From: an uncultured Bacteroidales bacterium
Lineage (GTDB): Bacteria > Bacteroidota > Bacteroidia > Bacteroidales > P3
Length of the DNA: 64,000 nt
NCBI GenBank assembly: GCA_944321885.1
Contig: CALUNB010000001.1
Span: 1 to 64,000 of the forward strand
Direction of reading: 5' to 3'
The translations under genes and the position numbers were made by a program. The notes beneath the pieces were generated by a model that saw only the letters and a list, made by a program, of their open reading frames with translations, was not told the DNA's origin and ran no database searches. Every line of letters starts with the position of its first letter. Positions within the stretch are counted from its first letter, which is position 1. Positions 28,882-62,989 of this stretch are shown here, piece by piece.

Positions 28882-31800
28882 TCAATATGGATTCTGCGGA
28901 AGCCTTGCGGCTTCAAAGTTCCGCACAAAAGTATTTTTTTTCGACATGGTGGCCAAGTAAATCATAAAACGGCCTTCCCTAAGTTGCGAATCCCGCATCT
29001 TGCTCACAAACTGGTTGAACCCCTCGTCCGAAGAAAAGATTTGCAAAACGTTGTTGCCACAGCTGAAATAAAGCCATTTGTTCCGGGCCGCTTCCAAATA
29101 AATATCCACCTCATCCCCCCGTCGCGTTTTTCGCAGGCTCACGTAAGCTTTCATCTTCTTATTGACCGGGATTCCACCCAAAGCCAAAACAGCCGTTTGC
29201 CCGGAGCCGAAGAAGGTTTCCGTTTCCGGGTCCCATTCCAGTTCCAAATCCGGGAACACCAAAGCCTGGCGCAAACCCTCGGGAATCACCTCCAGAACCC
29301 CGGTCCTGGCCAGACCTTCCTTGACCTCTTCCCATCGCGATCCGGGTAAAGTCCTCTCCAGATAGCTATCCACATAACTTCCCGGAGCTATTTCCACACC
29401 CTCGAGGTCGATTTGGGCATTGAGAATCTCCGCCATGAGCCCGGACAAGACCTGTGGCAAAAAGAAATCGAAAACCGTCAAAGCCCGTGTCTTGATAGCC
29501 CCGGAGGATTCCTTGATCATATCTCCCCACACGCCAATCCGGAATGCCGGCAATTTCACATCCAAGTCAATGACACCCTTAGCCGTGGCCAGACACTTGT
29601 CCATGGAGACATCCAGGACCCGCCGCCCGGTGCTGTCCCATACTTGGTAAGCCTGGTCTTTCCCGGAGAAACCGAGCCATCCGCTCAACTCGATGTTCTT
29701 CAAATCATTCGAGATTTTCCGCTGCATGAAACGGAACATCGGTTCCCGGGAACGGGTCTGCGTATAAAAACCGCATCCCAACAACCTGCCTGTCGTGGAC
29801 CGGGTCTGGCCCGTTACCGGAATCAAAACCGAATCCGAGTTGATATAAGCTTCAAATTGGAAACCATCGGACAAGAACGGATTGCCAGGCCGTATTCCTT
29901 CGGCCTCTTCTCCAGGCAGAAGCACTTCCTCCTCTCCCCGGTTCCCCTTACGTTTGGAACTTCCTTGGGAATCCGTCTTCCGCTGGCGCTCCCCTTTCGC
30001 GTTCTCCTTTTTCTGCCGGTTGTCACCCGTTCCTTCATCTTCCGAATACTCGAAATCGTCATAACTTTCCTGCGCCGAAGACACTTCCCCGGCTCCGGCC
30101 TCCTCCGAAGCATACTCGAAATCATCGTATCCGGATATATTTTCCTCTTCCGGGAACCCGTATTCCGCTTCCCCGGCTTCCGGAAACGAACATGCATACA
30201 CCATCCGGGCGCTGCCGGAAAAGAAAGGATAGGTCTGCCGGGCATCGATTTCCATTTTCCCGATGAACTGGAATGCCTCGTTCAAGTCCAAGACGGAACT
30301 ATCGGCCACCAAACGGGCTTCTGCCCGGGAATGGCCTCCGTTCATCGGCCTTATTCCCGCAAAATACACAGGCTGGACTTCCAAACCCGGGGCTTTGTAA
30401 TCAAAAAAACCGGACACCCTGTATTGGTTGGCCGAGACCACCCGTCCGGCCACACCATGGAAAGAATGCAAGCGTGCCCGGTCGCCGAAATAAAGCTCCG
30501 CACCGGTCAAAGGTGCCAAAACTCCCGTTTTTTCCACGGTCAGGTTACCCTGGGCCGGAACAAACAGGGCATCGGCCACCAACAAACGCCGCACACCCGA
30601 AAAAGAAAGCACGGTATCCGCATACGACAAGACGGACGAAGTGGCATGGAAACCCAAACCAGCCTGGGCTTTCCGGGTCGATTCAAAATACTCTCCCGGC
30701 AATTCCGCCGTGAACAAAGCCCCCTTGGAAAGCGTGTCGAATCCCGGCATCCCTATCCCGGAAGAATCGCCATAACACAGGTTCACGTCCTTTTTCCGCA
30801 TATCCCAATACAAGGAAGCCACATGGCCCCGGTATTGGTTGAGACCGAACTCCAAAGGAGAACGTCCCCCAAGGGAATGGAAGGAAGCGGCCTGCCTGTC
30901 CAAATCCACATCCAACGAACAATCTCCCGTTTCCAGGAAAGCCGGCCCTTGAAGGTCGCCTATCCGGAGGCTTCCCGAGTCGGAGGCGAACCCCCTGCGC
31001 CAGACAGAAAAACGCTCCGCCGATACTTGGGCTTCCCCGATTTTCCGTAATTCACCGCATGCCGAAGAAAGCGAGGGCGAAAACTCGTAAAAGCCCCGCA
31101 ATTCCCATTCCGGGCCGAAAACTTGCAACAAGGAATCCTGGTCGGATGCCACCTGGAACCGGCCATCCTCCTTGGTAAAGATACCGTTCACCCCCAGGCC
31201 TTGGACCAAAGGATATTCCACGCCCTGCCCCGAACCGGCATTCAAGGCAAATTCAACGGCATGCAAGTCCATATCCCGAGGTCTCAAGGTTATCCGGTTC
31301 GAAAAGGAATTCGATTCCATGTATTTGAACTGGCCATTTCCCCACAAGCCGGAATTATCCAAGGTCAAAAGCCCCGCAAACCTTGCCATTTGCCCATAAG
31401 CGGGCAAACCCTCCAGGCTTGTCTTCCGGGTAAACCCCAAAGAAAAGTCGGGCATCACCTTCAGCTCTTCCCGGATGTCCGGGAAAATGCCGGCCGAAAC
31501 CAAAGTCCCCGCAAAAGAAATGCTGTCGGTCTGGAGCGTGTTCAGCTTGTCCATCCGGAAAGGGTCCACCTGGAAATAAAAAGAATCTGCCTTGTATACC
31601 CCGTCCTGCACATAAGGTTCGTCATAATAAACGAAAGAGGACTGGGTACTTTCCAGAATCGGATACTGTGGATAGTCTTTCCGCCCCCCCTTGTTGGAAG
31701 GATTGTCAATATAAACCGATCCTGCCAGATAGCGTATCTTGGAGACAACCGGCCGCAAAACATCCCTCCCGTCCTCCACCGTCTTGACCTCCAGTCCCAA

Positions 31801-43100: not shown

Positions 43101-46100
43101 CTACAACCGGACCAGTTTTCCCCGAAGTATCGAACCGTCCGACATTTCAAGCTGGTACAAGTAAACCCCGGAAGGCAAAGCCTGTACATCGGCCTGGACA
43201 GCAACCTCCCCGGACTGGAGGAAGGGCCTTTCGAAAACCTGCTTGCCCCTCAGGTCAAAGAGACGCAAGCGGACGATACCGGCACCGGAGACCGAAAAAT
43301 GCACCTGACCCTCCGGACCGACCGGATTGGGATAAACCCGGACGGAAACATCCCCTGCGACCATCCCGGGCAAATCCTCGTTGGCGGAACCTCCCGTCAA
43401 ACTGGCCGTGAACATATCGGATCCCGTTACCGGATGCAAGAAGGAAATTTGTTCCGAAACCGTGTTGAAATTCATATCCGACCAAAATTCAAACGCATAG
43501 CCCGGATAAACCGCCACTTCGATAAAAGCCGTATCACCCCAATAATAGGATCCGGCCCCCATCGCCAAACCGCCTTCCGAAGGATACAAATCGGTCAAGA
43601 TATTATAACGTTTGGGACGGAACAAGGCCACATAGCCGGCATCCCCGGCCTCCACCGTAGCTTGGAGCGAAGCCGAAGTGGAAACCACTTCCCCGTCCTT
43701 GGCCCAAGCCACGAACTCATGGTTGGCATCCGCAACGGCCTCGAATCCCAAAATGGAACCGGAAGCAAAAGCCCCGCCGCTTGTCACCGTACCGGAACGC
43801 AAGGGCGATGCCAAAGTGTTCACCTGGAACATCAAAGGTTCGAACACCGCTTCCAAGGAAATGTCGGCATCCATCAAAACAGGCAACGAAGCCAAAGGAT
43901 ACACGGCCTGCCCCGCCTCATCCTGCCAGTAGGCGAAACGGTAGCCCGGATTGGCCACGGCCGAAAAGACCACCGTCGAACCTGCCTCGTACTCCCCGGA
44001 ACCCGAAGCGATTCCACCCTCGCCAGCCCGGATGGAAGCCACATACGAACAGGGAGCGAAGCGTGCCTGCAAAAGCGTATCGCCCGTCACCACCCATTCC
44101 AAGGGATTTTGCACGGAAACCTCACGCCCTTGGGCATCGCACCAAGCTTCAAAGACATAGCCCTCGAAGGCCCGGGCCGTCAAGGTGGCCGTTTCCCCGC
44201 TTTCATACAAGGCCGCACCTTCTGTTTCCCCGCCAAGACCGGCTTCGAGACGCACCCAAGCGGAATCCACCGTGAAAACAGCGGTCAAAACGGTATCCCG
44301 GCATAAATCGAAACAAAAATCCGCCTCCTCCGAAATCCATTTCCCGCCCGAACGCCAAGCCTTGAACACATAGCGGCTCCCGGGCAAGGCCTGCACGCAG
44401 GCCTCTTGACCGTAAGCGAACATCCCGTTGCCCCGGACTTCCCCGAATGTAGCAGGTTCGGCCTGCACCTCGATCCGGTACATCTCCGGTTCAAAAACCG
44501 CTTCCACCTCCATGTCCCCGCTTACCGGGATGGAAAGCCAAGGCTCCTCGCCCAGCACCAACTGTCCCTGCCGCCAAGCCGTAAACTGGTAACCCGGCGC
44601 CGCTTCGGCATGCAAAAGGACTTCCGAGCCGTTTTCCAGACTCGCAAAATCCCCCCAAGCCAAAGTATCGGACCATTGCGTCCCAACCACCTCTTCCAAG
44701 GTGTACAGACCCGCCCGGCCCGCCCCGGAAGGGGTCGGAAGCACGCGCAACGGATACTCCGCCGGACGGAAAAAAGCATACAAGGAAGTATTTTCCAAGA
44801 TTTCCATCTGCCAAACCGGGGAACGGGAAAGCACGGTGGTGGTATCGGCCATGGAGGTCCAATGGCTGAACACATAACCCGGCATGGCGACAGCTTCCAG
44901 GCCGACCCGGGCACCATAACCGGGACGGAAGGAGGTGGCTTCGACATAACCTTGGCGGCTATGGGCAGCCTGGGCTTCCAAAGCTAATTTTTCCGGAACG
45001 AAAACCGCATGAACCAAGGTGTCGGACAAAGCCTGTAGCTCCAAGATCTCATCCTGGCCCAAAAGGTTTCCTTCCGGATCCGTCCAAGAATCAAAAACAA
45101 AGTGTGCACCGGCTTCCGCTTGCAAACGGGCTTGAGTCCCATAGGTCCGGTAGCCATGCAAGGAGGATTCCAAATCTCCCTCTTCTTCTTGATTTTCAAC
45201 CCATCGGATTCCCCCGCTCCCGGAAGAAACCCGGGCCTCCATATAGACTTCCCGTGCCTGGAACAAGGCCCGCAAAGAAGCCGGAACTTCCACCGGCCAT
45301 CCCAGGACCGGACGGGACAAGGTATCCCAAGCCCCTTCCCCGTCGGGAACCATCCAACCGGAGAACACATAGGCTTCCGCCGGAACAGCTTCCAAGCGGG
45401 CTTCGCTCAAATAAGGATACAGGCCGCCTCCGTCCACAGCCCCGGCCCCGGCCGGTTCCACTTCCACGGACATTTCAAAAAGGGCCGGTACGAACAAGGC
45501 GAAAAGGGAAAGGTCTTCCTCCACCTTGAAAACATAGGAGCGCGAGCTTTCCAAACAAAGCAAACAGGACGTATCCTGGGCCCGATACCATCCCCCGAAC
45601 TCGTAACCGTAGGCCGGAACGGCTTCCAGCACCACTTCGCTCCCGTATTCATGACGCAGGGAACCGGAAATTTCCCCGAAATAAGTCCGGAGGTTCGAGG
45701 ATGAAGCCGGAATCCATCCACGGACCTCCCCGGCGACATCCAAACGGGCCGCCAAGCCCAATTCCAAGGTGTCCGGCTTGAACACAGCCTGCACCAAAGT
45801 ATCCTGCAAGGCAGGTACATGGCAAACGCGTTCCTGCCCCAGCCTGTTTCCGTCCTTGTCCGCCCAGGAGTCGAAGGCGAATCCCGGATTGGGAACCGCT
45901 TCCAAGGCTGCCCACTGGCCCGTGGCGTAATTCCCTTGGTTTTCCACTTTCCCGGCCTGTCCGGGCACCGCCACAGCCTCGATTCCGTATAAATCCGTCC
46001 CGAATTCCGCCACGATGCGGGCCGGGCCGGTCACGACATGGAGGTATTCCGCCTGGCGCGACAAAAGGGAGTCGTCCGGGTTCCCGTCCTGGTCCGTATA

Positions 46101-48974
46101 ATAAATCCGCCAGGCCGAAAAACGGACCTCCGGTACCCTGGCTTCCGCTTTCAATGACAGGCAAACGCCATAAGCCGTATCCAAATCCAAGCGCGTGGCA
46201 ACCGCCCGGCCTTCCACGGAAACCTGTCCTTTTCCCGAAGCCCCGCCGGTCATGACTTCCACATGGAAAACATCGGGTTCAAAATAAGCATGGAGCGTGG
46301 TATCCCGCAGCACGTAAAGCCGCAAAGCCTCCGGAGCCGTATTCCGGATTCCCAGGTCATCCCCCCAACCGGCAAAATGGTAGTTGGGTGCGGCCTGGGC
46401 CTGCAAAAGCGCATAGGAAGCGTTTTCGTACAAGCCTGTCCCTTCGACCGAACCAGCCGCCGCCGGAACAGCCAACGCGGAGACCTGCTTGCGGGCTTCG
46501 CTAAAAACAGCCACATAGGAAGCATCCTCCAAAACGGCCAGCTTCCAAGGATTCTCCGCAGACACGCTATCCTTCCTTATACCCTGGCGTCCGGCCCAAT
46601 AACGGAACTCGTACCCCTCCATGGCCACGGCTTCCAACACCGCCGTGTCAAAATGGGCATAAATCCCGCCCCCTCTCGTCCTACCATAGGAAGCATTTTC
46701 CGGGGAAAGCTCGATCCGATGATCCACCAAGGCGAAAACAGCCTGGATTTCAGCCGATTCCTCGACAGTAAACGCATACGGGTTCTCGAAGGAAAGCGTA
46801 TCCACCCCTTCTTCCGTACTTCTCTGGATGGTCCAAGCCACAAAACGGTAGGTTTCCGTTTCCTTGGCTTCCAAGACGGCTTCCTGCCCGTAGGTGTAGT
46901 TGCCTGCCCCTTGCAATTCCCCGCCCGTTTCCACGTTGGAGGAGAGGGTCACCGCATAGGTTTCCTCCTCAAAAAAAGCCGTGAAAGAGCGGTCTTCGGT
47001 CAAACGTCCCCTTTCCAAAACCGTGTAAGGGTTGTCGGGAATCCGGCTCTGGTCTTTCCCGTCCACCCAGTAAAGGAAACGCCAACCCGCCTCCGGAATC
47101 GCCTCTATCTGGATCGTGGTATTGACGTTGGCGGCACTGAAACGCCCCGCCCCGATCAACATCCCGGCATGGGCCGGGGATGCCTCCAACGACAACTCGT
47201 AATACTGCTGGTCGAACAAGGCCTGCAAGGTCCGCACCGTGTCGGCCACGAACCGCAGTTCCGTTTCCGTGCCGATGGTATCCCCGTTCTCCAACCAAGC
47301 CACAAAACGGCAAAACGGCAGCGGGGAAGCCGTCAAGACCACTTCCGAACCATATTCATACAAACCGCTGCCGCTCACGCTTCCCAAATCGGCGGAAGAG
47401 GAAAGGGCCATGATCCGCAAACGTCCCGGTTCGAACAAAGCCGTCACATCCATGTCCGAAACCATGTCGAACGCATATTCCGGATTGGCCGAAAGCAAAA
47501 TCCCGTTGCTGTAAAATCCCGAAAACTGGTAATTTCCGGAAGGTTCCGCCCGCAATTCCACACGGCTGGCATGCTGGTAGGCATAATCACCGGGAGCCGG
47601 GACCAGACTTCCCTCTCCTTCGATGGCCAAATGCAAGTTGTACTGGTTCAAGGCGAAAACCGCCCTCAAGGAACGGTCGGCATCCACCCGGAAAACATAG
47701 GTTTCCCCGGCACCGGCCACTTCCTGCCCGTTTTCTTCCCAACGCACGAAATGGTAACCCGTGTAAGGCGTGGCTGTCAAAACTGCCTCGGAACCCTCGG
47801 CATAGGCTCCCGCCCCGCTGACGGTCCCGCCCCCGTCTTGCACCGAGGCGGCAATCGTGAAACCGCGCATCAGCACGATGTCCTGGCCGTTGTCCGGCGT
47901 CACCAAGGGGTAATTGGTCGAACGCAAACGAATCCGGTAATGTTCGCCCAAGGGGGTCCCTGCCGGAATCGTGGCCTCCACGGAACCGCTTTCATCGGTC
48001 CTGAGGCTGCCCAAGCGCAAAGGAGAGACGAAAGACCCTTCAGCATCCGACATCTCGGCAATGACCTCGTTGGGATTGGCCGGATACGTATTCGGGCTCA
48101 TGGTCCCGCTCAGGCTGAAAGGAATTTCGAAACGCTGCGCCCCGTCCCGCATGTTGAAGCTCAAAACAGGGAGGGTATTCATCCGGAGTTCCGGATTATA
48201 AACGAACAGGATGTCGTCCACGTAAATCTCGGCGGCCCCGCCTCCCGGGATTGCATTGGAACTGATGGAAACCAAGCAGTAACGAGGCTCGGTACTCCCA
48301 CACCCCTCCCGGTTGAAAGGAACACTGTAACGAATCCAATCCCCGTTCCCCCTGACCGGGTTGACCGTGGCCACCGCCACCGCTTGGTTATAATCCGTCC
48401 CGGGGTCACGGGTATCGTTGTCATTATGGATGATGGCCCGGATCTGCCCTCGGTCCGAAGCGTTGTCCGGGGCATAGCGGACCCAAACCACCATGGAATC
48501 CGGCACCATGCCGAAGGGCAGGTTGAAACCTGCGGAAGAACGGTCGGTGAAATTATGGTTCGACAAATCGGATGCCGTCATGGATCCCATATTGATACGA
48601 CCCGTAGTCACATTTCCGTTGGCGTTGACACCCACGACATTGGTCGAATACACTCTCAAGTGGTACGAACCGTTCGAACCAGGGCGGCCTCCGCCAACCC
48701 GGTCGAGTCGCTGGGCTTTTCCCGCATCAATCAAACCTCCTGCGGAATTTGCCGTCATGAACGAGTTCCAACCCACCGGTTCCACCGAGCTTGAACCCAA
48801 ATTGTCATATTCCTCGAAGCCCCGGTTGGGCAATTGTTGTGTCCCGTTCAAATCCTGGGCTTGCAAAGGGAAAAACAAGCAAGACAAGATCCAGCAGAAG
48901 CCGAAGCGGAAAAGGGGGAATCCCCGTTTCCCTTTTCCGGAAAGCTCCCGTATCCCTGTTATCTTCTTTTCCAT
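43101..48974 (-). CDS. Giant surface protein: N-terminal PCMD-like domain, about 19 InlB-type repeats, T9SS sorting domain
   Basis: 1957 residues. A signal peptide (FGFCWILSCLFFPLQAQ) leads to an N-terminal domain of about 250 residues that resembles the PCMD/carbohydrate-associated family (NRGFEEYDNLG...VEPVGWNSF to IYVDDILFVYNPE). About 19 repeats of roughly 75-90 residues follow, each with the Listeria-Bacteroides (InlB B) pattern: G-x-V-x-G-x-G-x-Y-x-Y-G, then GYxFxxW and a closing VxAxF. The last 80 residues (43104-43343) are a T9SS type A sorting domain (VRVYPNPVGPEG, LFDLRGKQVF, SGVYLYQLE), so the protein should be exported by T9SS and attached or released at the surface. An upstream ATG at 49052 overlaps the stop of the preceding gene; the ATG at 48974 fits the signal peptide better. 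Confidence 0.88.
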   Translation of the reverse strand: MEKKITGIRELSGKGKRGFPLFRFGFCWILSCLFFPLQAQDLNGTQQLPNRGFEEYDNLGSSSVEPVGWNSFMTANSAGGLIDAGKAQRLDRVGGGRPGSNGSYHLRVYSTNVVGVNANGNVTTGRINMGSMTASDLSNHNFTDRSSAGFNLPFGMVPDSMVVWVRYAPDNASDRGQIRAIIHNDNDTRDPGTDYNQAVAVATVNPVRGNGDWIRYSVPFNREGCGSTEPRYCLVSISSNAIPGGGAAEIYVDDILFVYNPELRMNTLPVLSFNMRDGAQRFEIPFSLSGTMSPNTYPANPNEVIAEMSDAEGSFVSPLRLGSLRTDESGSVEATIPAGTPLGEHYRIRLRSTNYPLVTPDNGQDIVLMRGFTIAASVQDGGGTVSGAGAYAEGSEAVLTATPYTGYHFVRWEENGQEVAGAGETYVFRVDADRSLRAVFALNQYNLHLAIEGEGSLVPAPGDYAYQHASRVELRAEPSGNYQFSGFYSNGILLSANPEYAFDMVSDMDVTALFEPGRLRIMALSSSADLGSVSGSGLYEYGSEVVLTASPLPFCRFVAWLENGDTIGTETELRFVADTVRTLQALFDQQYYELSLEASPAHAGMLIGAGRFSAANVNTTIQIEAIPEAGWRFLYWVDGKDQSRIPDNPYTVLERGRLTEDRSFTAFFEEETYAVTLSSNVETGGELQGAGNYTYGQEAVLEAKETETYRFVAWTIQRSTEEGVDTLSFENPYAFTVEESAEIQAVFALVDHRIELSPENASYGRTRGGGIYAHFDTAVLEAVAMEGYEFRYWAGRQGIRKDSVSAENPWKLAVLEDASYVAVFSEARKQVSALAVPAAAGSVEGTGLYENASYALLQAQAAPNYHFAGWGDDLGIRNTAPEALRLYVLRDTTLHAYFEPDVFHVEVMTGGASGKGQVSVEGRAVATRLDLDTAYGVCLSLKAEARVPEVRFSAWRIYYTDQDGNPDDSLLSRQAEYLHVVTGPARIVAEFGTDLYGIEAVAVPGQAGKVENQGNYATGQWAALEAVPNPGFAFDSWADKDGNRLGQERVCHVPALQDTLVQAVFKPDTLELGLAARLDVAGEVRGWIPASSSNLRTYFGEISGSLRHEYGSEVVLEAVPAYGYEFGGWYRAQDTSCLLCLESSRSYVFKVEEDLSLFALFVPALFEMSVEVEPAGAGAVDGGGLYPYLSEARLEAVPAEAYVFSGWMVPDGEGAWDTLSRPVLGWPVEVPASLRALFQAREVYMEARVSSGSGGIRWVENQEEEGDLESSLHGYRTYGTQARLQAEAGAHFVFDSWTDPEGNLLGQDEILELQALSDTLVHAVFVPEKLALEAQAAHSRQGYVEATSFRPGYGARVGLEAVAMPGYVFSHWTSMADTTTVLSRSPVWQMEILENTSLYAFFRPAEYPLRVLPTPSGAGRAGLYTLEEVVGTQWSDTLAWGDFASLENGSEVLLHAEAAPGYQFTAWRQGQLVLGEEPWLSIPVSGDMEVEAVFEPEMYRIEVQAEPATFGEVRGNGMFAYGQEACVQALPGSRYVFKAWRSGGKWISEEADFCFDLCRDTVLTAVFTVDSAWVRLEAGLGGETEGAALYESGETATLTARAFEGYVFEAWCDAQGREVSVQNPLEWVVTGDTLLQARFAPCSYVASIRAGEGGIASGSGEYEAGSTVVFSAVANPGYRFAYWQDEAGQAVYPLASLPVLMDADISLEAVFEPLMFQVNTLASPLRSGTVTSGGAFASGSILGFEAVADANHEFVAWAKDGEVVSTSASLQATVEAGDAGYVALFRPKRYNILTDLYPSEGGLAMGAGSYYWGDTAFIEVAVYPGYAFEFWSDMNFNTVSEQISFLHPVTGSDMFTASLTGGSANEDLPGMVAGDVSVRVYPNPVGPEGQVHFSVSGAGIVRLRLFDLRGKQVFERPFLQSGEVAVQADVQALPSGVYLYQLEMSDGSILRGKLVRL

Positions 48975-49048
48975 TTCAGCATGTTTGAGTGTTAAAAACT
49001 GTTTCTTCTTTTCCACGAACCTGCATTTCAAAGTTGTTTTCCTGGCTT

Positions 49049-52000
49049 TCATCGTTCCTCCCCGATTTTAGAAACCCGGGCCTCGATTTGCATGGAAGCC
49101 CCAGGTTCAAAGACAAAATTTTCCTGGTCCGAAAGCCACTCTTCCCGACCCTCGTCCACACGGTACCAAGCCTCGAAACGATACCCCTCGCGCAAGGAAA
49201 TACCTAAGCTTACCTCTTCACCTTTCCGGTACGAACCAGCCCCGCTCAGGGAAAGCACTCCTTGGGGGGTGTCCGTCTGCAAACGCAACCGGAAAGAAAC
49301 CTCCTCGAAATGGGCCACCAAAGCCGCCACTTCCTGTGCCGGAAGTTCCAAACGGCTGTCCTCCGAAAGCAGACTGTCCCCTTGGCTCCAATACAAGAAG
49401 CGGTAACCTTCGGCAGGACGAGCCGTAAACACCACATTCTCATCCACCGAAGCCATCCGGTTCCCTTCCACGCTCCCGCCTTCCGTTTGGTTCGGGACCG
49501 CGTTCACAAAAATTTCATCCGCCACGAACACGGCCCGGCACTCCATATCGGAACGGAGCGGTACCCGGAGCGTGTCTTCTTGAGAAAGCAGGACATCCCC
49601 CTGCATCCAAGCCTGCAAACGGTAGCCTTCCGAAGCGGAAGCCACCAAGCATGCCGTATCCCCGTACGGATAGGAACCCGCACCCGAAACCCGGCCTTCT
49701 CCCTCGGTCTCAGCCTCAATCCGGCATGTCCGGTAGGCGACACGGGCTTCCAGGACCACATCCTCCGTCACCGTATGGACAAAAGCCCTCTCTTCCGAAA
49801 CCGGGTTCCCGTTTCCGTCCACCCAAGCGCTCAAACGCAAGGCCTCCGGCAACGCGGACAAATAGACGTTCGCCGGGCTTCCGTAAGCATAAGAGCCCGC
49901 ACCCCGCAACACCACCTCTTCCAAAAGGTTTCCCTCTCCGGAAGGATTCCCGGACTCCCCGTCCAAGACCGCACGCAACGCCAACTGGAAGGTATCCGGT
50001 TCAAAGACCGCGAGCAAACGGGCCGGACGTTCCACGCTCCAATCCAAAGCGGCCCCGGTTCCCACGATATTCCCGTTTTCCATCCAAGCGGCGAAATGAT
50101 ACCCCTCGGCAGCCCGGGCCGAAAGCTTGGCCGTGGAACCAGCCGGATAAACACCCTGCCCGTCCACCGAACCCTCGCCTTGGATCCCGGTTTCCAGCAA
50201 ATACCCGGCATCCTTGAAGAAAGCATACAAGGTATCCGGCCCTTGTACCCGGTAGGAGAAGCTTGCCTCACGGCTCAAAGTGTCCTCCAAAGCCGAAACG
50301 GAAGCCCAATGGCTGAACTCCACGGTCGGGGACACAGGCCAAGCCTGTACGGTCACCAAGCTGTCGTAAGCATGGATACCCGCCCCGGAAACCGCCCCCT
50401 CCGGCTTGCCGGCCAAATCCAAACGCAAGGGATAGCGGCGCGGCGCGAACTCCAAATGGAAAAGTTGATCCGACCCCACACGCCAAGACAGCTCCGTTTC
50501 CTGGGAAAGTATATTCCCTTCCGCATCGTTCCAAGCCACAAGATAGTAGTTTCCAGGTTCTTCCACATGAAGCCGGACTTCCGTGCCATAGGCATGCGGC
50601 CCGAAGCCCTCCGTTTCCACTTCCAAGCCTTGGGGCAAACCTTCCGTTTCGGCTTGGAGTACATAGTAAGCAGTATCGAAAAGGGCGGTCACGATTTCAT
50701 CCCCTTCCAAGGTCCAGCGGAGCGTATCCACCGCCGGGAAGACCTCCTTCCGGCCCTCTTTTTCAATTTGCCATCCTTCCAACTCAAAAGCAGGTGAAGC
50801 CAAAGCCGTCCATTGGCAATCGCTCTTGTAAAGTGCCGTGAAAGAGGCAGGTGCCACCCGTTCCGAGGCGTAAACCGTCCCGGCCCCGGCAGGATGGACG
50901 ACAAGCCGGGCCGTCACAGGCAAGGTTTCGAAACGGGCCTCCAAACGCCTCGGCCCCTCTACCGGAAATTCCCATTCGGGCTGCATGCCCACACAAGTCC
51001 CCTCGGAATCGAACCATCCGGCAAAACGGTAATGAGGTTCCGCTTCCGCTTTCAAGACGCAAGCCGCCCCGTAGGGATATTCCCCGGCACCTTCCACCTG
51101 CCCGCCTTCGCCTGCTTCCGCCTCTACCAGGAACGGGAGCAAGTCGAAACGCGCCGTGAAACCGGTATCGTTCCGGCTCGAAAATTCAAAGGACGGGGAT
51201 TCCGAAACCAGGTTCCCCTCCGCATCCGTCCAAGCCGAGAAACGGTAGCCGTAAGCCGGGACAGCTTCCACCCGGACGCTCTGCCCGTAACGGCAAACTT
51301 CCGCTTCCACCCGGCCCGCCGAAGCCGGTTCCACCTTGTAATCCACCTTCAAACGCGCCGCTTGCATCAAGGCGGTCAATTCCGCATCCGAACTTACCGG
51401 ATACAGCCAAGGATTTTCCGTCCCCAAGGTATCCCCTTGGGCATCGATCCAAGCCGCCAACTCGTATCCGTCTGCCGGTGTCACACGCAAAAGACTGTTG
51501 TCACCGGTCTTGAAATCCCCGCCACCGTCCAAAGCCGAAACCGCTTGTTCCGGTTCGGCCTTCAAACCCACATGGCAGCTCAAAGCCCTGAAACGGGCCA
51601 CATAGCAAGCATTACCGTCCAACACGAATTCCAGGGAAGGCGTTTCCGCAACCAAGGTATCCTGGCAATACCAAGCCTCGAACGCATACCCCGGCAAGGG
51701 AAGCGCCCCGATTTCCACTTCCGAACCTTGGGGATAATCCCCCGCCCCGGAAAGCGTGCCAGCAACAGCGGGAGAGGAAAACAAATCCAACCTCCATGTT
51801 TCCGGACCGAAGACAGCCACCAAAACCGTATCCGAAGAAGCCCGCAAAAGCAAGGGATTCTGTTTGCCAAGGCTCCGGCCCTGCAAATCCTGCCATTCGA
51901 TGAAAACCGACTCCCCTTCCCGGGCCACGGCTTGCAGACGGAGTTCTTCCCCGAAGACCGGAGAGGCCTGCTCCAACACTTCTCCTTCCTCATCCAGCAC

Positions 52001-54763
52001 ATAGCCCTCTCCATGGCACCGGATTTCCAGCTCGTATGCCCGGGCCGCGAAAACAGCCGTCAAAACGGTATCCGAAACCACAGGCCCTACATGCAAGGGA
52101 TTGCTTTCACAGCGTCCTCCGTCTTCATTTTCCCAATACAGGAATTCATAGCCTTCAAAAGGAACGGCCCGCAAATCCGCTTCCGTGGAAGGCGCGTAAT
52201 TCCCGCTTCCCTCCGTATAGCCCCAAAGCAAGTTGGACGACAAAGCCTGCAAACGATAAGGAATATCCCCGAAAACAACGCAAACTTGGGCCGGCCCCCG
52301 TACCACATGGGTATAAACGGGTTCGTCCGAAACCGTATCCCCATCGACTATCCAGTAACGGACTTCCCGACGACCTTCGGGCACGGCCCGCAAGGCCAAA
52401 GTGTCGAAATGGGTATAAAAGCCCGTCCCCGGTTCAAGGCTTCCCCATCCTTCCGGAAGGGCTGCCATCCGTATTTCATGCTGGTCCAAGGCGAACACGG
52501 CCTCCACCAAAGTATCCGAAAAGACTTGCACCCGCAGGGTATCGGAAGGCGCCAAGCGCAAATCCCCGCACTGCCAGGCCTCCAAATGATAACCTTCCCC
52601 GGCAAAAGCCCGCAACAAAGCGGACTCCCCGTAGCGGTACTGCCCGGCACCCGAAACCCGCCCGTTCCGTGCGGAAACCTCCAAGGAGTAACGGGCCGTA
52701 TCGAAACGGGCCACAATCCGGTAATCGGCATCCAAATGCCCGCTTTCCACCAAAACCAGAGGATTCGCATATGCAGGCGGTTGCCCGATGCCATCCTTTT
52801 CAATATCGTAACGCACAAAACCATAGGCTTCGGCAGGAAGGGCTTCTATCCTCAGGCTCATCGTGTCAAAAGCCGAATAAAGGCTGTCGGCTGTTTCCCG
52901 TCCGTTCTGCAAGACCTTGCCCCAAGACGCCTGTCCCTCCGCCAAAGAAAGCCGCACCGAATGGAAATCCTCCTCGAAGACGGCCCGGTACCTCCCTCCG
53001 GCACGGATATTTTCAAAAGACAGCAAGGTATCGGTTCCTAGGATTTGACCCGTGGAATCCTCCCAGCGTAAGAAGTGGCTGTAAGGGTTGGCAGCCCGGG
53101 CCGAAGCCGTGAAACTGCTGAAATGTTTATGGATTCCCCCGCCTTCCACACTGCCGAGCTTGGCATCGGGCAAGACTTCAAACACAAACTCGTAAGGGAT
53201 GCTGTCCACCAAAGGCAACACCGTCCCGCCCTGGGCAGGCACGAAATCGAAAGAAGGGACGTTTTCCGAATGCAGCTGTCCCATGAAATCGTAGCCGGAA
53301 AAAGCATAGCCATAGTCGAGGTTCAGGCGCAAACGGGCCGTATCCCCGGCCACCACGGTCAAATCCTGGGCGTTGTTGTTGGCGAAATAAGAAGAAGCCC
53401 CGACCACTTGCGCCAAATGCAAGGTGTATGTGGTATCGAACACAGCAAGCAAATCCCGGTCTTCCGTCATCGTGAAGCGGTAAACGGACTCCCTTGCAAC
53501 CCATTGTCCGTTTTCCTGCCAACCTGAAAAGACGCAATCCGGATGGGGGCTTGCCTCCAACGTCTGGGTGCTGTTGTGTCGGACAAGCTGCTGTCCCTCC
53601 GCCGGATTCACGCTCCCCATCGCGTTACTGGCCCGCACGTCCAAGTACCATTCCCGGTAGATGGTCAAAGGGAGCTCAATACTTTGCACAGGATAATTGG
53701 TCGATTCCAAGCGGAGCCGGTACTTGTCCGAGTCGGGCAAATCCGCCGGAATGCTGGCGGAGAGGCTTCCTGATTGCGTGAAACCGGATACCGCGGTCCA
53801 GCCAATCTGGAGCGAATTGTCGAACGAACCGTTCTCGTCCGACAGATAGGCGCGGATTTCGTTCGCGGCGGAAGGATCCAAAGGTTCCAAGGTCCCGGCA
53901 GAAAAGTCGTAAGGGATGGAAAAATTCTGGGAAGTGCCTCCATGACGGACCAAGCGGGTCGGGCAATCCGCTCCGATGCTCATCGAGGGGTTGTAAACCA
54001 GCAACACATCGTCCACCCACATCTGGTCCCCGTTCACCACCTCGCGGAAGCTGTTACCTGCCGTGAAGATCAGCAAAAGGTAAGCGGGATCCGAGGTACT
54101 GGCATACTGCACCGGGACACTGTATCTTGTCCACTGGCCCCCGTTGTACTGGATTTTCACATGGGCCGAACCGATGACGGTGCCGTTGACCGTATTCCCG
54201 CTGCCCCGGTCTTCCAAATCGCTGCCGTCATGCAGGTAAAGCGTCATATCCCCGTTCCGGCCCCCGTTCTCACCCAGCTTGGCCCAGAACACGATGGAAT
54301 CGGGGCGGCCGCTGAAAGCCCAAGACTTGGAACCATCGCTGGTTTTCGTATAAATGCAGGAGCTGCTGTTATCCTTGCTGTCGTAATAGTACAAGGTCCC
54401 GGTCGTCAACGTTCCCATGTCTACATAAGAGGTGGAACCGAATGGAAAAGAATAGTGGTACCAGCTCGATTGCGTGACCTGGATCCGGACCGAACGGCTT
54501 CCCTCGGAGCCAGGCCGCACATCCGTGCTCTGCCAAACGGACTGGTTCCGGGCATACCGGCTTGCGGCATTCCCGGCCTCGAAATTGGAGCTCGAGCTCC
54601 AAGCCCAAGGGCGCACATCACTGTCCCAAACCTCGAAATCGTAATTCGGAGGTTGAGGAAAACCATTTTTTTCAGTCACTTGAGCGGCAAGGTCCGAAAA
54701 GGTCCCTGCCATGCACAGCAAAAGCGATAAGAGAACCGGAATAATCCTGATCCGTTGTCCCAT
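49049..54763 (-). CDS. Giant exported protein: PCMD-like domain and about 20 InlB-type repeats, no sorting domain
   Basis: 1904 residues, built like the next gene: signal peptide (IIPVLLSLLLCMAGTFSDLAAQ), an N-terminal domain (NYDFEVWDSDVRPWAWSSS to WVDDVLLVYNPS) and about 20 InlB-type repeats. It ends inside the last repeat (EGYRFEAWYRVDEG...MQIEARVSKIGEER) with no T9SS sorting domain, no anchor and no frameshift that could restore one. It may be truncated, periplasmic, or hand on its repeats to the neighbour. The start overlaps nothing upstream; a TAATTTTG box at 54846-54853 lies 83 bases before. Its stop overlaps an alternative ATG of the next gene (ATGA), so the two are translated from one message. 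Confidence 0.85.
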   Translation of the reverse strand: MGQRIRIIPVLLSLLLCMAGTFSDLAAQVTEKNGFPQPPNYDFEVWDSDVRPWAWSSSSNFEAGNAASRYARNQSVWQSTDVRPGSEGSRSVRIQVTQSSWYHYSFPFGSTSYVDMGTLTTGTLYYYDSKDNSSSCIYTKTSDGSKSWAFSGRPDSIVFWAKLGENGGRNGDMTLYLHDGSDLEDRGSGNTVNGTVIGSAHVKIQYNGGQWTRYSVPVQYASTSDPAYLLLIFTAGNSFREVVNGDQMWVDDVLLVYNPSMSIGADCPTRLVRHGGTSQNFSIPYDFSAGTLEPLDPSAANEIRAYLSDENGSFDNSLQIGWTAVSGFTQSGSLSASIPADLPDSDKYRLRLESTNYPVQSIELPLTIYREWYLDVRASNAMGSVNPAEGQQLVRHNSTQTLEASPHPDCVFSGWQENGQWVARESVYRFTMTEDRDLLAVFDTTYTLHLAQVVGASSYFANNNAQDLTVVAGDTARLRLNLDYGYAFSGYDFMGQLHSENVPSFDFVPAQGGTVLPLVDSIPYEFVFEVLPDAKLGSVEGGGIHKHFSSFTASARAANPYSHFLRWEDSTGQILGTDTLLSFENIRAGGRYRAVFEEDFHSVRLSLAEGQASWGKVLQNGRETADSLYSAFDTMSLRIEALPAEAYGFVRYDIEKDGIGQPPAYANPLVLVESGHLDADYRIVARFDTARYSLEVSARNGRVSGAGQYRYGESALLRAFAGEGYHLEAWQCGDLRLAPSDTLRVQVFSDTLVEAVFALDQHEIRMAALPEGWGSLEPGTGFYTHFDTLALRAVPEGRREVRYWIVDGDTVSDEPVYTHVVRGPAQVCVVFGDIPYRLQALSSNLLWGYTEGSGNYAPSTEADLRAVPFEGYEFLYWENEDGGRCESNPLHVGPVVSDTVLTAVFAARAYELEIRCHGEGYVLDEEGEVLEQASPVFGEELRLQAVAREGESVFIEWQDLQGRSLGKQNPLLLRASSDTVLVAVFGPETWRLDLFSSPAVAGTLSGAGDYPQGSEVEIGALPLPGYAFEAWYCQDTLVAETPSLEFVLDGNACYVARFRALSCHVGLKAEPEQAVSALDGGGDFKTGDNSLLRVTPADGYELAAWIDAQGDTLGTENPWLYPVSSDAELTALMQAARLKVDYKVEPASAGRVEAEVCRYGQSVRVEAVPAYGYRFSAWTDAEGNLVSESPSFEFSSRNDTGFTARFDLLPFLVEAEAGEGGQVEGAGEYPYGAACVLKAEAEPHYRFAGWFDSEGTCVGMQPEWEFPVEGPRRLEARFETLPVTARLVVHPAGAGTVYASERVAPASFTALYKSDCQWTALASPAFELEGWQIEKEGRKEVFPAVDTLRWTLEGDEIVTALFDTAYYVLQAETEGLPQGLEVETEGFGPHAYGTEVRLHVEEPGNYYLVAWNDAEGNILSQETELSWRVGSDQLFHLEFAPRRYPLRLDLAGKPEGAVSGAGIHAYDSLVTVQAWPVSPTVEFSHWASVSALEDTLSREASFSYRVQGPDTLYAFFKDAGYLLETGIQGEGSVDGQGVYPAGSTAKLSARAAEGYHFAAWMENGNIVGTGAALDWSVERPARLLAVFEPDTFQLALRAVLDGESGNPSGEGNLLEEVVLRGAGSYAYGSPANVYLSALPEALRLSAWVDGNGNPVSEERAFVHTVTEDVVLEARVAYRTCRIEAETEGEGRVSGAGSYPYGDTACLVASASEGYRLQAWMQGDVLLSQEDTLRVPLRSDMECRAVFVADEIFVNAVPNQTEGGSVEGNRMASVDENVVFTARPAEGYRFLYWSQGDSLLSEDSRLELPAQEVAALVAHFEEVSFRLRLQTDTPQGVLSLSGAGSYRKGEEVSLGISLREGYRFEAWYRVDEGREEWLSDQENFVFEPGASMQIEARVSKIGEER

Positions 54764-55116: not shown

Positions 55117-56094
55117 TTAACGAACCACCGCCTTCAAAACCGCCGAACCCTTCGCATTGCTCAGCCGTACGAAATAGAAGCCGGGCGCATAGGAAGACAA
55201 GTCGATAGCACGCAAACCGGCCCCTACATGCCTTTCTTCCCTCAAAACCTGGCCCGAAAGGGAAATCAGCTGCAAGTCGCATGCTTCTTTCAACTCCAGG
55301 TTGAAACGCCCGTCCGCAGACGGATTCGGGTAAAGTTTCGAAGAAGCCAAGGCGGCATTCGCCTCGTTTGCCTGAGGATCGCTTCCTCCATAAACCAGCT
55401 CCACATCGTCAATCCAAAGTTCGCTGCCCAATTGACCCCGGCATGCCAAGAAATTGGCCATGTTATAACCGGCACTGGCAACGAACATGACCGTAATCGA
55501 GTCGGGTTGCTGGCCCGAACGGTATTCCACCGGGACATTGAACTCGGTCCAATCAGCCACTGCATCATGGAAAATCTGCTCACCGCGTCCTACCACTTGA
55601 CGGGTTCCCAAGTCGGCATTGTAGCGTGTCAACTCGATGAAAATGCTGGCCGAGTCCCCGTTCACGGGAACATACTTCATATAGCCGCGCAGTGCATCAG
55701 GACGGTCTGTGAACGGCTTGCCTAACACCGCCGTGATATTGCTAAAATCCACAAACAGGGTTCCCACCATGCCCGGCAGGAAAATCCCTTGTTCCGAACC
55801 TCCGAAAGCCATCTGGTTGGAAACCAACCTCGGGGCATAGTCCTCGGCTTCCCCGGAACGGCCGGTTTCCTTGAACATCGTCACCGGCCCGGTGAACATC
55901 TCAGCCGGTAAAGAGGCCAAGTTGTTCAAGGATGTCCAGAACGGGTCGGACAAATCGTCGTAAGTGCTGCCATCTGCAGCGGTTCCCGTTGTCCAATAAT
56001 CGAAACCCGGGTCGCTGAACTGCTCCCCGCTTTGGGCCGAAAGGCTTCCAAAAAACCAAGGCAACAAGGCCAAGGTAAAAAGCATCTTTTTCAT
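55117..56094 (-). CDS. Exported PCMD-like protein with T9SS sorting domain
   Basis: 325 residues. Signal peptide (MLFTLALLPWFFGSLSAQ), a single domain of about 220 residues resembling the N-terminal domain of the two giant proteins (GFDYWTTGTAADG to ELWIDDVELVYG), then a T9SS type A sorting domain of about 73 residues (KLYPNPSADGRFNLELKE, SGQVLREE, APGFYFVRLS). It is thus a small surface or secreted protein. It sits 77 bases downstream of a TonB-dependent receptor gene and shares its transcript; a strong terminator follows. A carbohydrate-binding or nutrient-capture role is an inference from the receptor. Confidence 0.85.
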   Translation of the reverse strand: MKKMLFTLALLPWFFGSLSAQSGEQFSDPGFDYWTTGTAADGSTYDDLSDPFWTSLNNLASLPAEMFTGPVTMFKETGRSGEAEDYAPRLVSNQMAFGGSEQGIFLPGMVGTLFVDFSNITAVLGKPFTDRPDALRGYMKYVPVNGDSASIFIELTRYNADLGTRQVVGRGEQIFHDAVADWTEFNVPVEYRSGQQPDSITVMFVASAGYNMANFLACRGQLGSELWIDDVELVYGGSDPQANEANAALASSKLYPNPSADGRFNLELKEACDLQLISLSGQVLREERHVGAGLRAIDLSSYAPGFYFVRLSNAKGSAVLKAVVR

Positions 56095-56171
56095 GGTATT
56101 CATCATTTCTGTCAATCTTTTTCTTCCAGTCTTATCTCTACACGCAAAACCATCCCCTCCGCAGCCTTGTC

Positions 56172-59020: not shown

Positions 59021-60208
59021 TCAATACGTGAAAGTCCCGTGCTCACCATCTATGGTCAACATGTTCTTGGAGGTGTTTTCGCAATAACCGATGACCTTGG
59101 CATCCAAATCGAAATACCGGGCGATCTTGATCACGTCGGCGGCGATGTTCTCCTTCACGTACAATTCCATACGGTGTCCCATGTTGAAGACCTGGTACAT
59201 CTCCTGCCAAGAAGTCCCGCTCTCGGCCTGGATCATCGAGAAGACGGGAGGCGTGGCAAACAAGCTGTTCTTGATGACATGCAAGTTGTTCACGAAGTTC
59301 ATGACTTTGGTCTGGGCCCCGCCCGTGCAATGGACGATGCCGTGGATACTGGGACGGTAATTTTCCAGGATGGCCTTGATGACCGGGGCATAGGTACGTG
59401 TCGGCGACAAAAGGAGCTGCCCCACGTTCATACCTTCCACACCGGTTTCATCGGTCAAGGATTTGCTACCCGAATAAACCAAGTTGTCAGGCACCGCCTT
59501 GTCGTAGGATTCCGGGTATTTTTCCGCATAGGAATGGTTCAGCACGTCATGCCGGGCCGAAGTCAAACCGTTACTACCGATACCGCTGTTGTATTTGGTC
59601 TCGTAGGTGGTCTTGCCGAACGAAGACAAACCGATAATCACATCCTTGCCTTGGATGCGGTCGCAAGAAATGACCTCGTTGCGCTTGAGGCGGGCGCAAA
59701 CGGTCGAATCCACGACAACGGTCCGCACACTATCGCCCATGTCGGCGGTCTCCCCGCCGGCGAAAGCGATATGTATATGCTCCTTGGCCATGTTGTCCAC
59801 GAACTCCTGGGTCCCCTCGATGATTTCCTTGATGACCTCGCCGGGAATCAGGAACTTGTTGCGTCCGATCGTGGAAGAAAGCAAAAGGTTGTCCGTGGCG
59901 CCCACGCACAACAAATCGTCGGTGTTCATGACAATGGCGTCCTGGGCTATGCCCCGCCAAACCGAAATGTCACCCGTTTCCTTCCAATACAAATAGGCCA
60001 GGATGGCTTTTGTCCCCGCCCCGTCTGCATGCATGATGTTGCAATACGAAGGTCCGAACATGCTCTTCTTGTTTTCACCCACGATATCCGGGATGATTTT
60101 GCAAAAGGAACGCTCGAAAAGCCCCTTGTCCAAGTTGCTCACTGCATTCTTCACATCGGTCTTGGCTGCCGAAACGCCCCGTTGCTCGTACTTTGTATTC
60201 GCTTCCAT
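59021..60208 (-). CDS. purM: Phosphoribosylformylglycinamidine cyclo-ligase (AIR synthase)
   Basis: 395 residues, a little longer than E. coli PurM. The PurM/PurL-type ATP-binding fold shows MHADGAGTKAILAYLYWKET, IAQDAIVMNTDDLLCVGA, IAFAGGETADMGDSVRT and GLSSFGKTTYETKYNSGIGS; the latter block and HCTGGAQTKVMNFVNNL are typical of the Bacteroidota form. It closes the imidazole ring in purine synthesis. The ATG at 60208 (MEANTKYEQRGVSA) was chosen. It is flanked by envelope genes, with no other purine gene nearby, and has its own terminator. Confidence 0.93.
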   Translation of the reverse strand: MEANTKYEQRGVSAAKTDVKNAVSNLDKGLFERSFCKIIPDIVGENKKSMFGPSYCNIMHADGAGTKAILAYLYWKETGDISVWRGIAQDAIVMNTDDLLCVGATDNLLLSSTIGRNKFLIPGEVIKEIIEGTQEFVDNMAKEHIHIAFAGGETADMGDSVRTVVVDSTVCARLKRNEVISCDRIQGKDVIIGLSSFGKTTYETKYNSGIGSNGLTSARHDVLNHSYAEKYPESYDKAVPDNLVYSGSKSLTDETGVEGMNVGQLLLSPTRTYAPVIKAILENYRPSIHGIVHCTGGAQTKVMNFVNNLHVIKNSLFATPPVFSMIQAESGTSWQEMYQVFNMGHRMELYVKENIAADVIKIARYFDLDAKVIGYCENTSKNMLTIDGEHGTFTY

Positions 60209-60280
60209 GTCACTAGTTTTTATGTTACCCATTCCCCTCTCCGTTTTTCCATGCAGAAGAAGCCCCCGTCAGGTCCCCAA

Positions 60281-60373: not shown

Positions 60374-62989
60374 CTATTCCTCGATTACAATATGTTTCGC
60401 TTCTTTGTCAATATGGTATGCCCCGATTTTCGAAAAAGCGGACGGACAGAGGATGATTTCCGCCGGAAGTTCCTCGGCCGTCACCAATTCGACACGCTGG
60501 ATGACATACTGTCCTATTTTTATCTCTTTCAACTGCAAACGCTGGTTGGGGAGCACCTCGCCTTCCTCATCGAAAGCCTTGTCCTTGTTGCGGAAGCTGT
60601 TCTTGCCCAGGTTCCCGGCCTGCAAAAGCCGCATGGCCGCATCGATGCTGATGGCATTGAGCCTGCCTCTTTCATCCAAGACGGCCCGCATCCCCAAACC
60701 GTTGGCAATCACCCGCATTTCGGGCTGTTGGTCGGGATTCCAGACAAAAGGAATCTTGTTGGCGTTCTCCAAATCGGCAATCCCGATAATGGCACTCAGG
60801 CTGCGGTCACCCGAAGGGATGAAATCTTCCCGCAAGACACTGAACTCGGTACGGCGGTTCAACTGGTGGGCGGCTTCCTTCCTTGCCCGGCTGCCCAAGG
60901 TATCGATATAGGCATCGGTCAGGACCACGCCGGAATCGAAGACATAGGGTGTTCCTTGGTAAACCGAGACCATTTGCCGGTCCAGACGGCGCGGCGCTCT
61001 CGAACCGTAGCCCTTGGCCACCAAGCGTTCCCCGTCGATACCACGTTTGATCAGGTAATCGACCACCGACTGGGCACGGTATTGCGACAAGGAGTCGTTC
61101 GTCATGGCAATAGGCCGGGAGTCGGTATGCGAAGCCAACTCGATGACCAGGCGCGGATTCTTCTCCAACAGCACAATCAAACCCATCAAGGAATCCTGGT
61201 ATTGTTCCTTCAAGTCCCATTTTCCCAAATCGTACAAGATTTCAGGCAGAACCACCGGCCCCTGCGGTATGGGTTCCAAGACGAAGTCGTGCACGAAATC
61301 CTTGCTCGCCACTAAACCTACCGTCGTCTCGCTGCCTTCCGCTCCCAGATAGTTCCGCTTCCCCACGATAATCTTATAGGTTGTATTCTCATTGACCTGG
61401 CCGCTGTTGAACTGGTAGAAACCCCGTCCATTCGTGGTCACGGCCACCAACATCCCGTCGCTGCCCACCAAGGTCACTTCGGCATCAGCAATCGGTTGCA
61501 AGGTCTCCTCGCTGGTCACGGTCCCTGAAATCGTGAAAAGGATATCGGGCAGGTTGAACGAATAAATGTCGTCGCTGCCCCGTCCCCCACCCCGGTTGGA
61601 GCTGAAAAAGCCTTGGTTCCGTCCCGGAAGGAAACATATCCCGAAATCATCGGCATTGGTATTCACCGGATAATCCAAATGCCCGATTTCCGTGTAAAGC
61701 CCGTCGCGCAGAACCGAAGAAAAAATATCATACCCCCCCGAGGAATTATGTCCGGTAGAAGAAAAATAGAACGATGTATCGTTACGAAGGAAAGGATAAG
61801 CTTCCTTGTATTCGGTATTGATCCATTTCCCGTCCGCGTTGCCTTCGGCCAAACGGGCCTCGATTTCCTCGGGCGTGGCGGTCTTGTCCCAGTTCATGTT
61901 CACGGGGACCCCGAAACTGCTCCCGCTCCCCTCCGCGTACCAGATATCCAAATCCCCGTAGCCGCCCTCCATGTTGGAAGCGAAATAAAGACGGCTTCCA
62001 TCCTCGGTGATGAAAGGATGCACGAAATCGGAAACCGTATCCCCGTTGATTTCCACGGTCACGGGATCCCCCCAGGCGGAACCATCGAAAGTGGAGGTCT
62101 TGATGACACAACGGTTGGCCTTGTTGTCCTCGCTGCCGCAGAAAGTATAGTACATGGTATTGCCGCCATTGCAGAAAACGGCATCGCTCTCGTTCGAAGC
62201 CGTGCTGGTCTTACCGTTCTGGTCCAGTTTCTCAGGAAGACTCCAGGTACCTTTGGCGGCATCTTGCTTGGCCACGAAAATATCGGAAAAACGTTCCCCG
62301 GTCCAGGCGTCGGTCTTCTTGCCAGTCACTCCCTCCCGCGTGGAAGAAAAAGCGATGATGATGCCTTCCGCATCGTAAAGACGGGGATTCCAATCCCCCG
62401 CGTTGGTGTTGAGCTTGCGCACGTTCTCCACCTGGTAGCGGGAAGCCTGGGAGGCCAATTGCTGCGCCAGCATGCTGGCCCGCAAGCCTTGGATACCGGC
62501 ACTGTCGTCGGGGATATAATCCAAATAATTCTGGAAATTCTCAATCGAAGCCTCGTATTGGCCAGCGGACAATTGCAAGTTGGCTAAATCGAAATAAACA
62601 TCCGGGCGCACCTTGTAGTACCCGGCACGGATGCAACGCTGGTATTGACGCATCGCCTGGCGGCTCTGCCCGCTCAACCGGTAGGATTCGGCAATCTGGT
62701 ACATCAAACGGTTCTTCAAATCCGGGTCGCTCCCCTTTTTCTTCTTTCCCAAACGGGCGAAAGCTTTCTGGTATTGCGTCACCGCCACGCTGTACATATG
62801 GTAACGGAATGCCGTATCCGCCTTCTTGATCTGGCGGTTCTGGGCGAACGCCCCCGCAGGAGAGCAAAGAAAAATCAAAGAGAAAAGAAAACACAGGAAT
62901 CCTTTCCGTCCCCTCAGGCAGCTCCGGGGTGGAACACCCCGGCCGCAATTAGATATCTCCGTCTCTGTTTTAAGCTCTTCTGCAACCAT
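60374..62989 (-). CDS. PorE-like OmpA-family protein (TPR, beta-propeller, CRD, OmpA) with C-terminal retropepsin-like domain
   Basis: 871 residues. Signal peptide (FLCFLFSLIFLCSPAGAFAQ), then TPR helices (about 55-190), PD40 beta-propeller repeats (about 200-480: DWNPRLYDAEGIIIAFSSTR, DGSRLYFASNMEGGYGDLDI, GFFSSNRGGGRGSDDIYSF), a carboxypeptidase regulatory-like domain (TISGTVTSEETLQPIADAEV) and an OmpA domain (LPEILYDLGKWDL, ASHTDSRPIAM, RAQSVVDYLIKRGI) with the peptidoglycan-binding Asp and Arg. This order is that of the T9SS outer-membrane component PorE. The last 116 residues (60377-60724) form a retropepsin-type fold with DERG in place of the catalytic DTGA. PorE proteins lack this. It could be a PorE variant or a paralogue. 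Confidence 0.8.
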   Translation of the reverse strand: MVAEELKTETEISNCGRGVPPRSCLRGRKGFLCFLFSLIFLCSPAGAFAQNRQIKKADTAFRYHMYSVAVTQYQKAFARLGKKKKGSDPDLKNRLMYQIAESYRLSGQSRQAMRQYQRCIRAGYYKVRPDVYFDLANLQLSAGQYEASIENFQNYLDYIPDDSAGIQGLRASMLAQQLASQASRYQVENVRKLNTNAGDWNPRLYDAEGIIIAFSSTREGVTGKKTDAWTGERFSDIFVAKQDAAKGTWSLPEKLDQNGKTSTASNESDAVFCNGGNTMYYTFCGSEDNKANRCVIKTSTFDGSAWGDPVTVEINGDTVSDFVHPFITEDGSRLYFASNMEGGYGDLDIWYAEGSGSSFGVPVNMNWDKTATPEEIEARLAEGNADGKWINTEYKEAYPFLRNDTSFYFSSTGHNSSGGYDIFSSVLRDGLYTEIGHLDYPVNTNADDFGICFLPGRNQGFFSSNRGGGRGSDDIYSFNLPDILFTISGTVTSEETLQPIADAEVTLVGSDGMLVAVTTNGRGFYQFNSGQVNENTTYKIIVGKRNYLGAEGSETTVGLVASKDFVHDFVLEPIPQGPVVLPEILYDLGKWDLKEQYQDSLMGLIVLLEKNPRLVIELASHTDSRPIAMTNDSLSQYRAQSVVDYLIKRGIDGERLVAKGYGSRAPRRLDRQMVSVYQGTPYVFDSGVVLTDAYIDTLGSRARKEAAHQLNRRTEFSVLREDFIPSGDRSLSAIIGIADLENANKIPFVWNPDQQPEMRVIANGLGMRAVLDERGRLNAISIDAAMRLLQAGNLGKNSFRNKDKAFDEEGEVLPNQRLQLKEIKIGQYVIQRVELVTAEELPAEIILCPSAFSKIGAYHIDKEAKHIVIEE

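Follow-up and report, generated by a model that had tools for sequence, protein, structure and literature searches.

A fifth, retropepsin-like domain in a PorE orthologue of Bacteroidales as a probable non-catalytic binding module

Described systems and the locus

PorE of P. gingivalis (PG1058) is a T9SS-associated lipoprotein that ends after its OmpA domain. Its requirement for secretion and its binding to PorP have been shown for P. gingivalis only (PMC5053529, PMC9143113), and in its structure the peptidoglycan-binding side chains are Asp576, Asn584 and Arg591 (PMC7192894). The description of PorE published in 2016 noted C-terminal extensions on some homologues and excluded 47 sequences whose surplus exceeded 70 residues (PMC5053529); no identification of this extension was found in the openly accessible journal papers searched. 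Bacterial retropepsins, for their part, are known enzymes (PMC12239564, PMC4140852), and in PorK, a component of the same machine as PorE, a catalytically dead FGE fold acts as a structural hub (PMC12421860). We analysed a stretch of 64,000 nucleotides from an uncultured Bacteroidales bacterium (referred to as the window), whose features of interest are collected in Table 1.

Table 1. Features of the porE locus in the window.
Feature	Residues	Position	Strand	Basis
porE orthologue with C-terminal retropepsin-like extension	1-871	60374..62989	-	871 aa, frame uninterrupted
N-terminal signal peptide region, ending AFA followed by Q	about 1-50	62840..62989	-	sequence motif by eye
TPR, PD40 beta-propeller and carboxypeptidase-regulatory-like domains (CRD)		61267..62840	-	Pfam TPR, PF07676, PF13620
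OmpA_C-like peptidoglycan-binding domain	575-719	60833..61267	-	PF00691, alignment to 6top
Linker between OmpA and retropepsin-like domain	about 24 residues	60761..60832	-	pLDDT of two-domain model
Retropepsin-like pseudoprotease domain (predicted)	744-871	60377..60760	-	AF2, Foldseek PDB, hhalign
DERGR at the position of catalytic DTGAS	772-776	60662..60676	-	alignment, motif counts
LGKNSF, clade-specific [IL]xKxDF motif	794-799	60593..60610	-	conservation counts
IILC at the position of LLLG in the psi-loop	845-848	60446..60457	-	alignment, motif counts
AIR-synthase-related (PurM-like) gene, directly downstream of porE		59021..60232	-	PF00586/PF02769

Assignment to PorE and T9SS context

The window protein is the top PorE match in its own genome and, as judged from Pfam and from the NF052230 (T9SS_PorE) profile, contains TPR, beta-propeller, CRD and OmpA_C domains in the same order as PorE. 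NF052230 matched it with 503 bits over residues 36-720 (profile positions 4-648 of 648), which is below the cut-off of 600 bits curated by NCBI. Low scores are common to the genomes in which PorE is fused to the extension, many plain PorE proteins from outside Bacteroidales likewise fall below the cut-off, and the highest plain scores are 1000-1145 bits; the cut-off seems to be tuned to plain PorE. The assignment relies on the PorE-core tree and on synteny. As to the latter, the AIR-synthase gene lies directly downstream in most fused loci with enough flanking sequence, also outside Bacteroidales, and at ten or more plain loci, so that it is a conserved neighbour of porE throughout the class. 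We know of no functional link between this gene and porE.

The structure of the P. gingivalis PorE OmpA domain (6top) matches the window protein with an E-value of 1.3e-18, and in this alignment Asp623, Asn631 and Arg638 correspond to the three peptidoglycan-binding residues of P. gingivalis PorE. The alignment covers residues 581-719 and stops there, indicating that known PorE ends where the extension, a 128-aa domain, starts. Profile, tree, synteny and peptidoglycan residues together support the view that the protein is an orthologue of PorE, and not merely PorE-like, as the earlier note had described it. CHU_0125-type OmpA proteins have a related architecture (326 bits over residues 41-665), but the window protein scores well below its PorE-model value with that model, and to our knowledge these proteins carry no such C-terminal extension.

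With respect to P. gingivalis PorE, a further difference is found at the N-terminus, which by eye and pattern looks like a signal peptidase I type signal and shows no convincing lipobox. The lipobox is absent from the other fused PorE proteins too, with one convincing exception (L134), and also, beyond the P. gingivalis-like clade, from the majority of plain PorE, so that the lipoprotein signal is no firm defining feature of the family. For the same reason we discarded the idea that the new domain replaced the lipid anchor, the association being unspecific.

The T9SS translocon SprA was found in all of the 49 fused genomes tested and in none of 11 genomes devoid of PorE. The genome of the window contains 76 matches over the cut-off to T9SS sorting tails (CTD cargo) and one PorP. 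These data support the assignment of fused PorE to the T9SS, in agreement with the earlier proposal that the domain is sited next to the secretion machine.

Predicted fold and lost catalytic motif of the C-terminal domain

The earlier note had located a retropepsin-like domain at 60377-60724. This segment corresponds to residues 756-871 and reads as quoted there, although the domain really starts at about residue 744 (60760). With the window sequence alone, Pfam gave a weak gag-asp_proteas match (E 0.11), and therefore the retropepsin call went further than a single-sequence search allows. Profiles showed that the resemblance is not due to chance: when 27 extensions were aligned to 8 DTG enzymes by hhalign, the match spanned 127 columns, that is the full length, with an E-value of 1.8e-22, and the extension profile gave 1.7e-31 against a broader set of DTG retropepsins. 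PF13975 was matched by 16 of the 27 family members (best E-value 2e-4), and the weaker matches of a search with the last 122 residues were short proteins of 177-694 aa containing FDTGAS and LLLGQS.

The AlphaFold2 model of residues 744-871, computed from an alignment of 16 rows (the window and loci L034-L048), had a mean pLDDT of 95.5 and a pTM of 0.87. When compared with the PDB by Foldseek, all 38 matches at E ≤ 0.001 were retropepsins, the best being Rickettsia APRc (5c9b; E-value 8e-7, TM 0.64), followed by Ddi1 and HIV protease; searching the PDB by sequence, with the profile of the domain as query, yielded nothing useful, so that there the fold search alone was informative. In a model of both domains, pLDDT dropped to 53-61 in blocks 141-170 between OmpA and the new domain, as expected for a flexible linker. 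Profile and predicted structure thus support a retropepsin-like (clan AA, family A2) fold and bear out the strand order read from the sequence in the first place. The earlier note had held that a model devoid of the aspartic protease barrel would count against its proposal; the barrel is predicted, but the name double-psi beta-barrel used for it is not appropriate, since the acid-protease barrel has psi motifs and is usually classed apart from that fold.

Bacterial retropepsin-like proteases such as Rickettsia APRc, Pseudomonas RloA/RimB and members of PF13975 and PF13650 share with the domain the fold, the strand order, the NG turn, the flap glycine and the terminal strands. They are, however, free-standing, whereas the domain is joined to a secretion-system anchor and lacks both D-T/S-G and LLG. 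The two replacements are as previously reported for the window protein (DTGAS to DERGR, LLG to ILC or, in full, LLLG to IILC), and the loss of the catalytic motif is fixed in the whole fused clade. Neither DTG nor DSG occurs in any of 97 distinct fused domains from Bacteroidales, the nearest to an intact motif being FDPGTS in L116; the question whether any homologue retains DTG, raised in the earlier note, is thereby answered in the negative for these domains. The first position of the triad is Asp (Asp772) in 60 of the 97, the window protein included, and Asn, Glu, Ser, Met or another residue in the remaining 37, among which are close relatives with Glu (L004). The third position is Gly in 2/97 fused domains vs. 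22/22 of the active set. At the glycine of the LLLG motif, 34 fused domains have Gly and 46 have Asn (out of 97). By comparison, all free-standing or TPR-linked relatives examined contain DTG or DSG, except L200 (DTV). These counts support a loss of the catalytic triad throughout the fused Bacteroidales clade.

The positions that make up the fold show a different picture with respect to the catalytic ones. N763, G764, S781, A785, D798, G810 and G856 are conserved to much the same degree as in the enzymes, and L789 (97%) and F799 (98%) are stricter in the fused clade than in the enzymes. K796 is found in 78% of the fused domains, the motif positions 796 and 799 being I, F or L in active relatives. 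The hydrophobic residues of the terminal strands of the dimer sheet are kept (I, L or M at 867 in all fused domains, F869 in 79%). The old active-site loop varies in sequence and therefore shows no one ligand site that is evidently conserved. For the pairs without synonymous saturation, the domain gave pairwise dN/dS values of 0.02-0.13, from about half to several times those of the OmpA domain in each pair. The domain is therefore under strong purifying selection. A lost motif combined with a kept fold and a low dN/dS is the pattern of a working pseudoenzyme.

Origin of the fusion and possible roles of the domain

The survey of PorE homologues suggested in the earlier note was carried out for the family, the order and the class. 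Within the family of the window, the last 122 residues were matched in 142 of 149 genomes and in 12/12 genera, where they form the terminus of frames about 810-1050 aa long. Across Bacteroidales, the extension profile was matched in 119 of 393 genomes, about 98-100 of which have the fusion (frame of at least 780 aa, count from the match table), and fused PorE was present in 36 of the 120 sampled families, roughly a third. The PorE model was matched in 370 of these 393 genomes. Most Bacteroidales families and most of the class have a PorE devoid of the domain, which indicates that PorE can in general do without it.

In a tree of the PorE core from which the domain was removed, 50 fused proteins formed one clade with respect to 50 plain ones (support 100, 100/100), and no loss of the domain was seen within the fused lineages. 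In the domain tree, one branch separated 99 fused from 22 DTG domains (100/100). Outside Bacteroidales, the class-wide search gave mostly free-standing DTG proteases, apart from two families (f172 and f178, L244-L254) in which PorE carries a divergent, inactive retropepsin-like domain with YDPEES, FNGEE or YDPDGS at the motif position. In a joint PorE tree these formed a second clade (100/96), with plain PorE between it and the first. The PorE-core tree requires two changes for the fusion, and the domain tree is compatible with a common origin as well as with separate ones (AU p 0.46); the fusion in f172 and f178 is possibly independent of that in Bacteroidales.

We consider it fairly probable that the fifth domain is a retropepsin-fold pseudoprotease acting as a non-catalytic binding module placed after OmpA. 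PorE would be connected to the outer membrane via partners and to the cell wall via its OmpA domain, and the pseudoprotease, tethered by a short flexible linker, would be a non-cutting binding module at the wall end of this bridge. For the Bacteroidales clade, the enzyme may have been captured once, at its base, from a free-standing lineage, and have lost catalysis at or about the time of fusion; a second PorE lineage, outside Bacteroidales, carries a similar dead domain. The binding surface may be the old peptide cleft, where a peptide could be held and left uncut, or the sheet of terminal strands by which retropepsin monomers pair, since the retained hydrophobic pattern makes such pairing possible. 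In this way the domain would tie PorE to a further PorE molecule or to some other component of the envelope or the T9SS, and so reinforce the anchor or keep it in position. On the basis of sequence and model, a non-catalytic module for binding or dimerisation at the peptidoglycan end of PorE is the most likely role.

As the domain is catalytically dead and yet strictly preserved, the secretion machine has probably taken over a former enzyme for binding. PorK/GldK, with its repurposed FGE fold (PMC12421860), provides a precedent for reuse of this kind, and PorE would be the second case within the same machine in which an enzyme fold has become structure. The fold is different, however, and PorK/GldK is a subunit of the core ring, whereas PorE occurs with or without the retropepsin-like domain. 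About one third of the Bacteroidales families sampled have a five-domain PorE with a strictly conserved dead protease, which hints at an additional partner of the anchor or at a new oligomeric state and defines a precise piece to delete.

A narrower explanation, which we regard as possible but would not favour, is that the domain serves purely as a cap that dimerises or stabilises PorE: two pseudo-retropepsins would pair like the monomers of retroviral proteases and hold a PorE dimer on the wall, with no outside ligand. The hydrophobic terminal strands, the compact and confident single-domain model and the flexible linker are all in its favour. On the other hand, the DTG loop of retropepsins, which are homodimers with a shared active site, takes part in the dimer contact as well (the fireman's grip), and this loop is lost. 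It is rather unlikely, in our opinion, that PorE captured a retropepsin at least twice in Bacteroidota and that catalysis was lost each time because the cleft serves as a non-cutting peptide receptor. The ligand would in that case be an extended T9SS peptide (part of a cargo protein, a CTD signal or another subunit's tail), and PorE would handle substrate besides anchoring to the cell wall.

It appears improbable that the domain acts on an active retropepsin of the periplasm it shares, as a decoy or a regulator that competes for substrate or forms heterodimers with the enzyme. Some genomes do have both proteins, including that of the window, where a two-domain DTG protease is encoded on another contig; nevertheless, of the 142 genomes of the family only a minority gave a second, free-standing match with the same query, whose sensitivity for distant enzymes is limited. 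We think it very improbable that the domain is an active periplasmic aspartic protease near the T9SS, working through an altered motif. Asp772 would be available for it in the window protein and in the majority of fused domains, but the D-T/S-G triad is absent from all of them, the Asp itself is replaced in many, even in L004, and the psi-loop Gly is replaced in most, so that residual catalysis via Asp772 is unlikely. Hardly credible at all is a neutral, decaying leftover of gene fusion: although the active-site loop is free to vary, the domain has been kept in about 36 families with fixed fold residues and no loss in the tree, and its dN/dS refutes neutrality unless selection acts on PorE stability alone.

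Some other genes of the window and its genome were noted. The two-domain retropepsin, on contig C6 (L001 609-1727), contains DTGCS and DTGN in one chain. In the window, an open frame of 1600 aa (28882-33684, minus strand) has no Pfam match at 1e-5. Two tandem genes on the minus strand (43101-49052 and 49049-54763) overlap by 4 bases and encode giant proteins (1983 and 1904 aa) that abound in divergent InlB B-repeats, of which only the downstream one bears a T9SS sorting tail; they are not a single frameshifted gene, since the second has its own signal-like start. Finally, 55117-56115 (minus strand) encodes a secreted protein of 332 aa with a T9SS type A sorting tail (C1:55123-55335).
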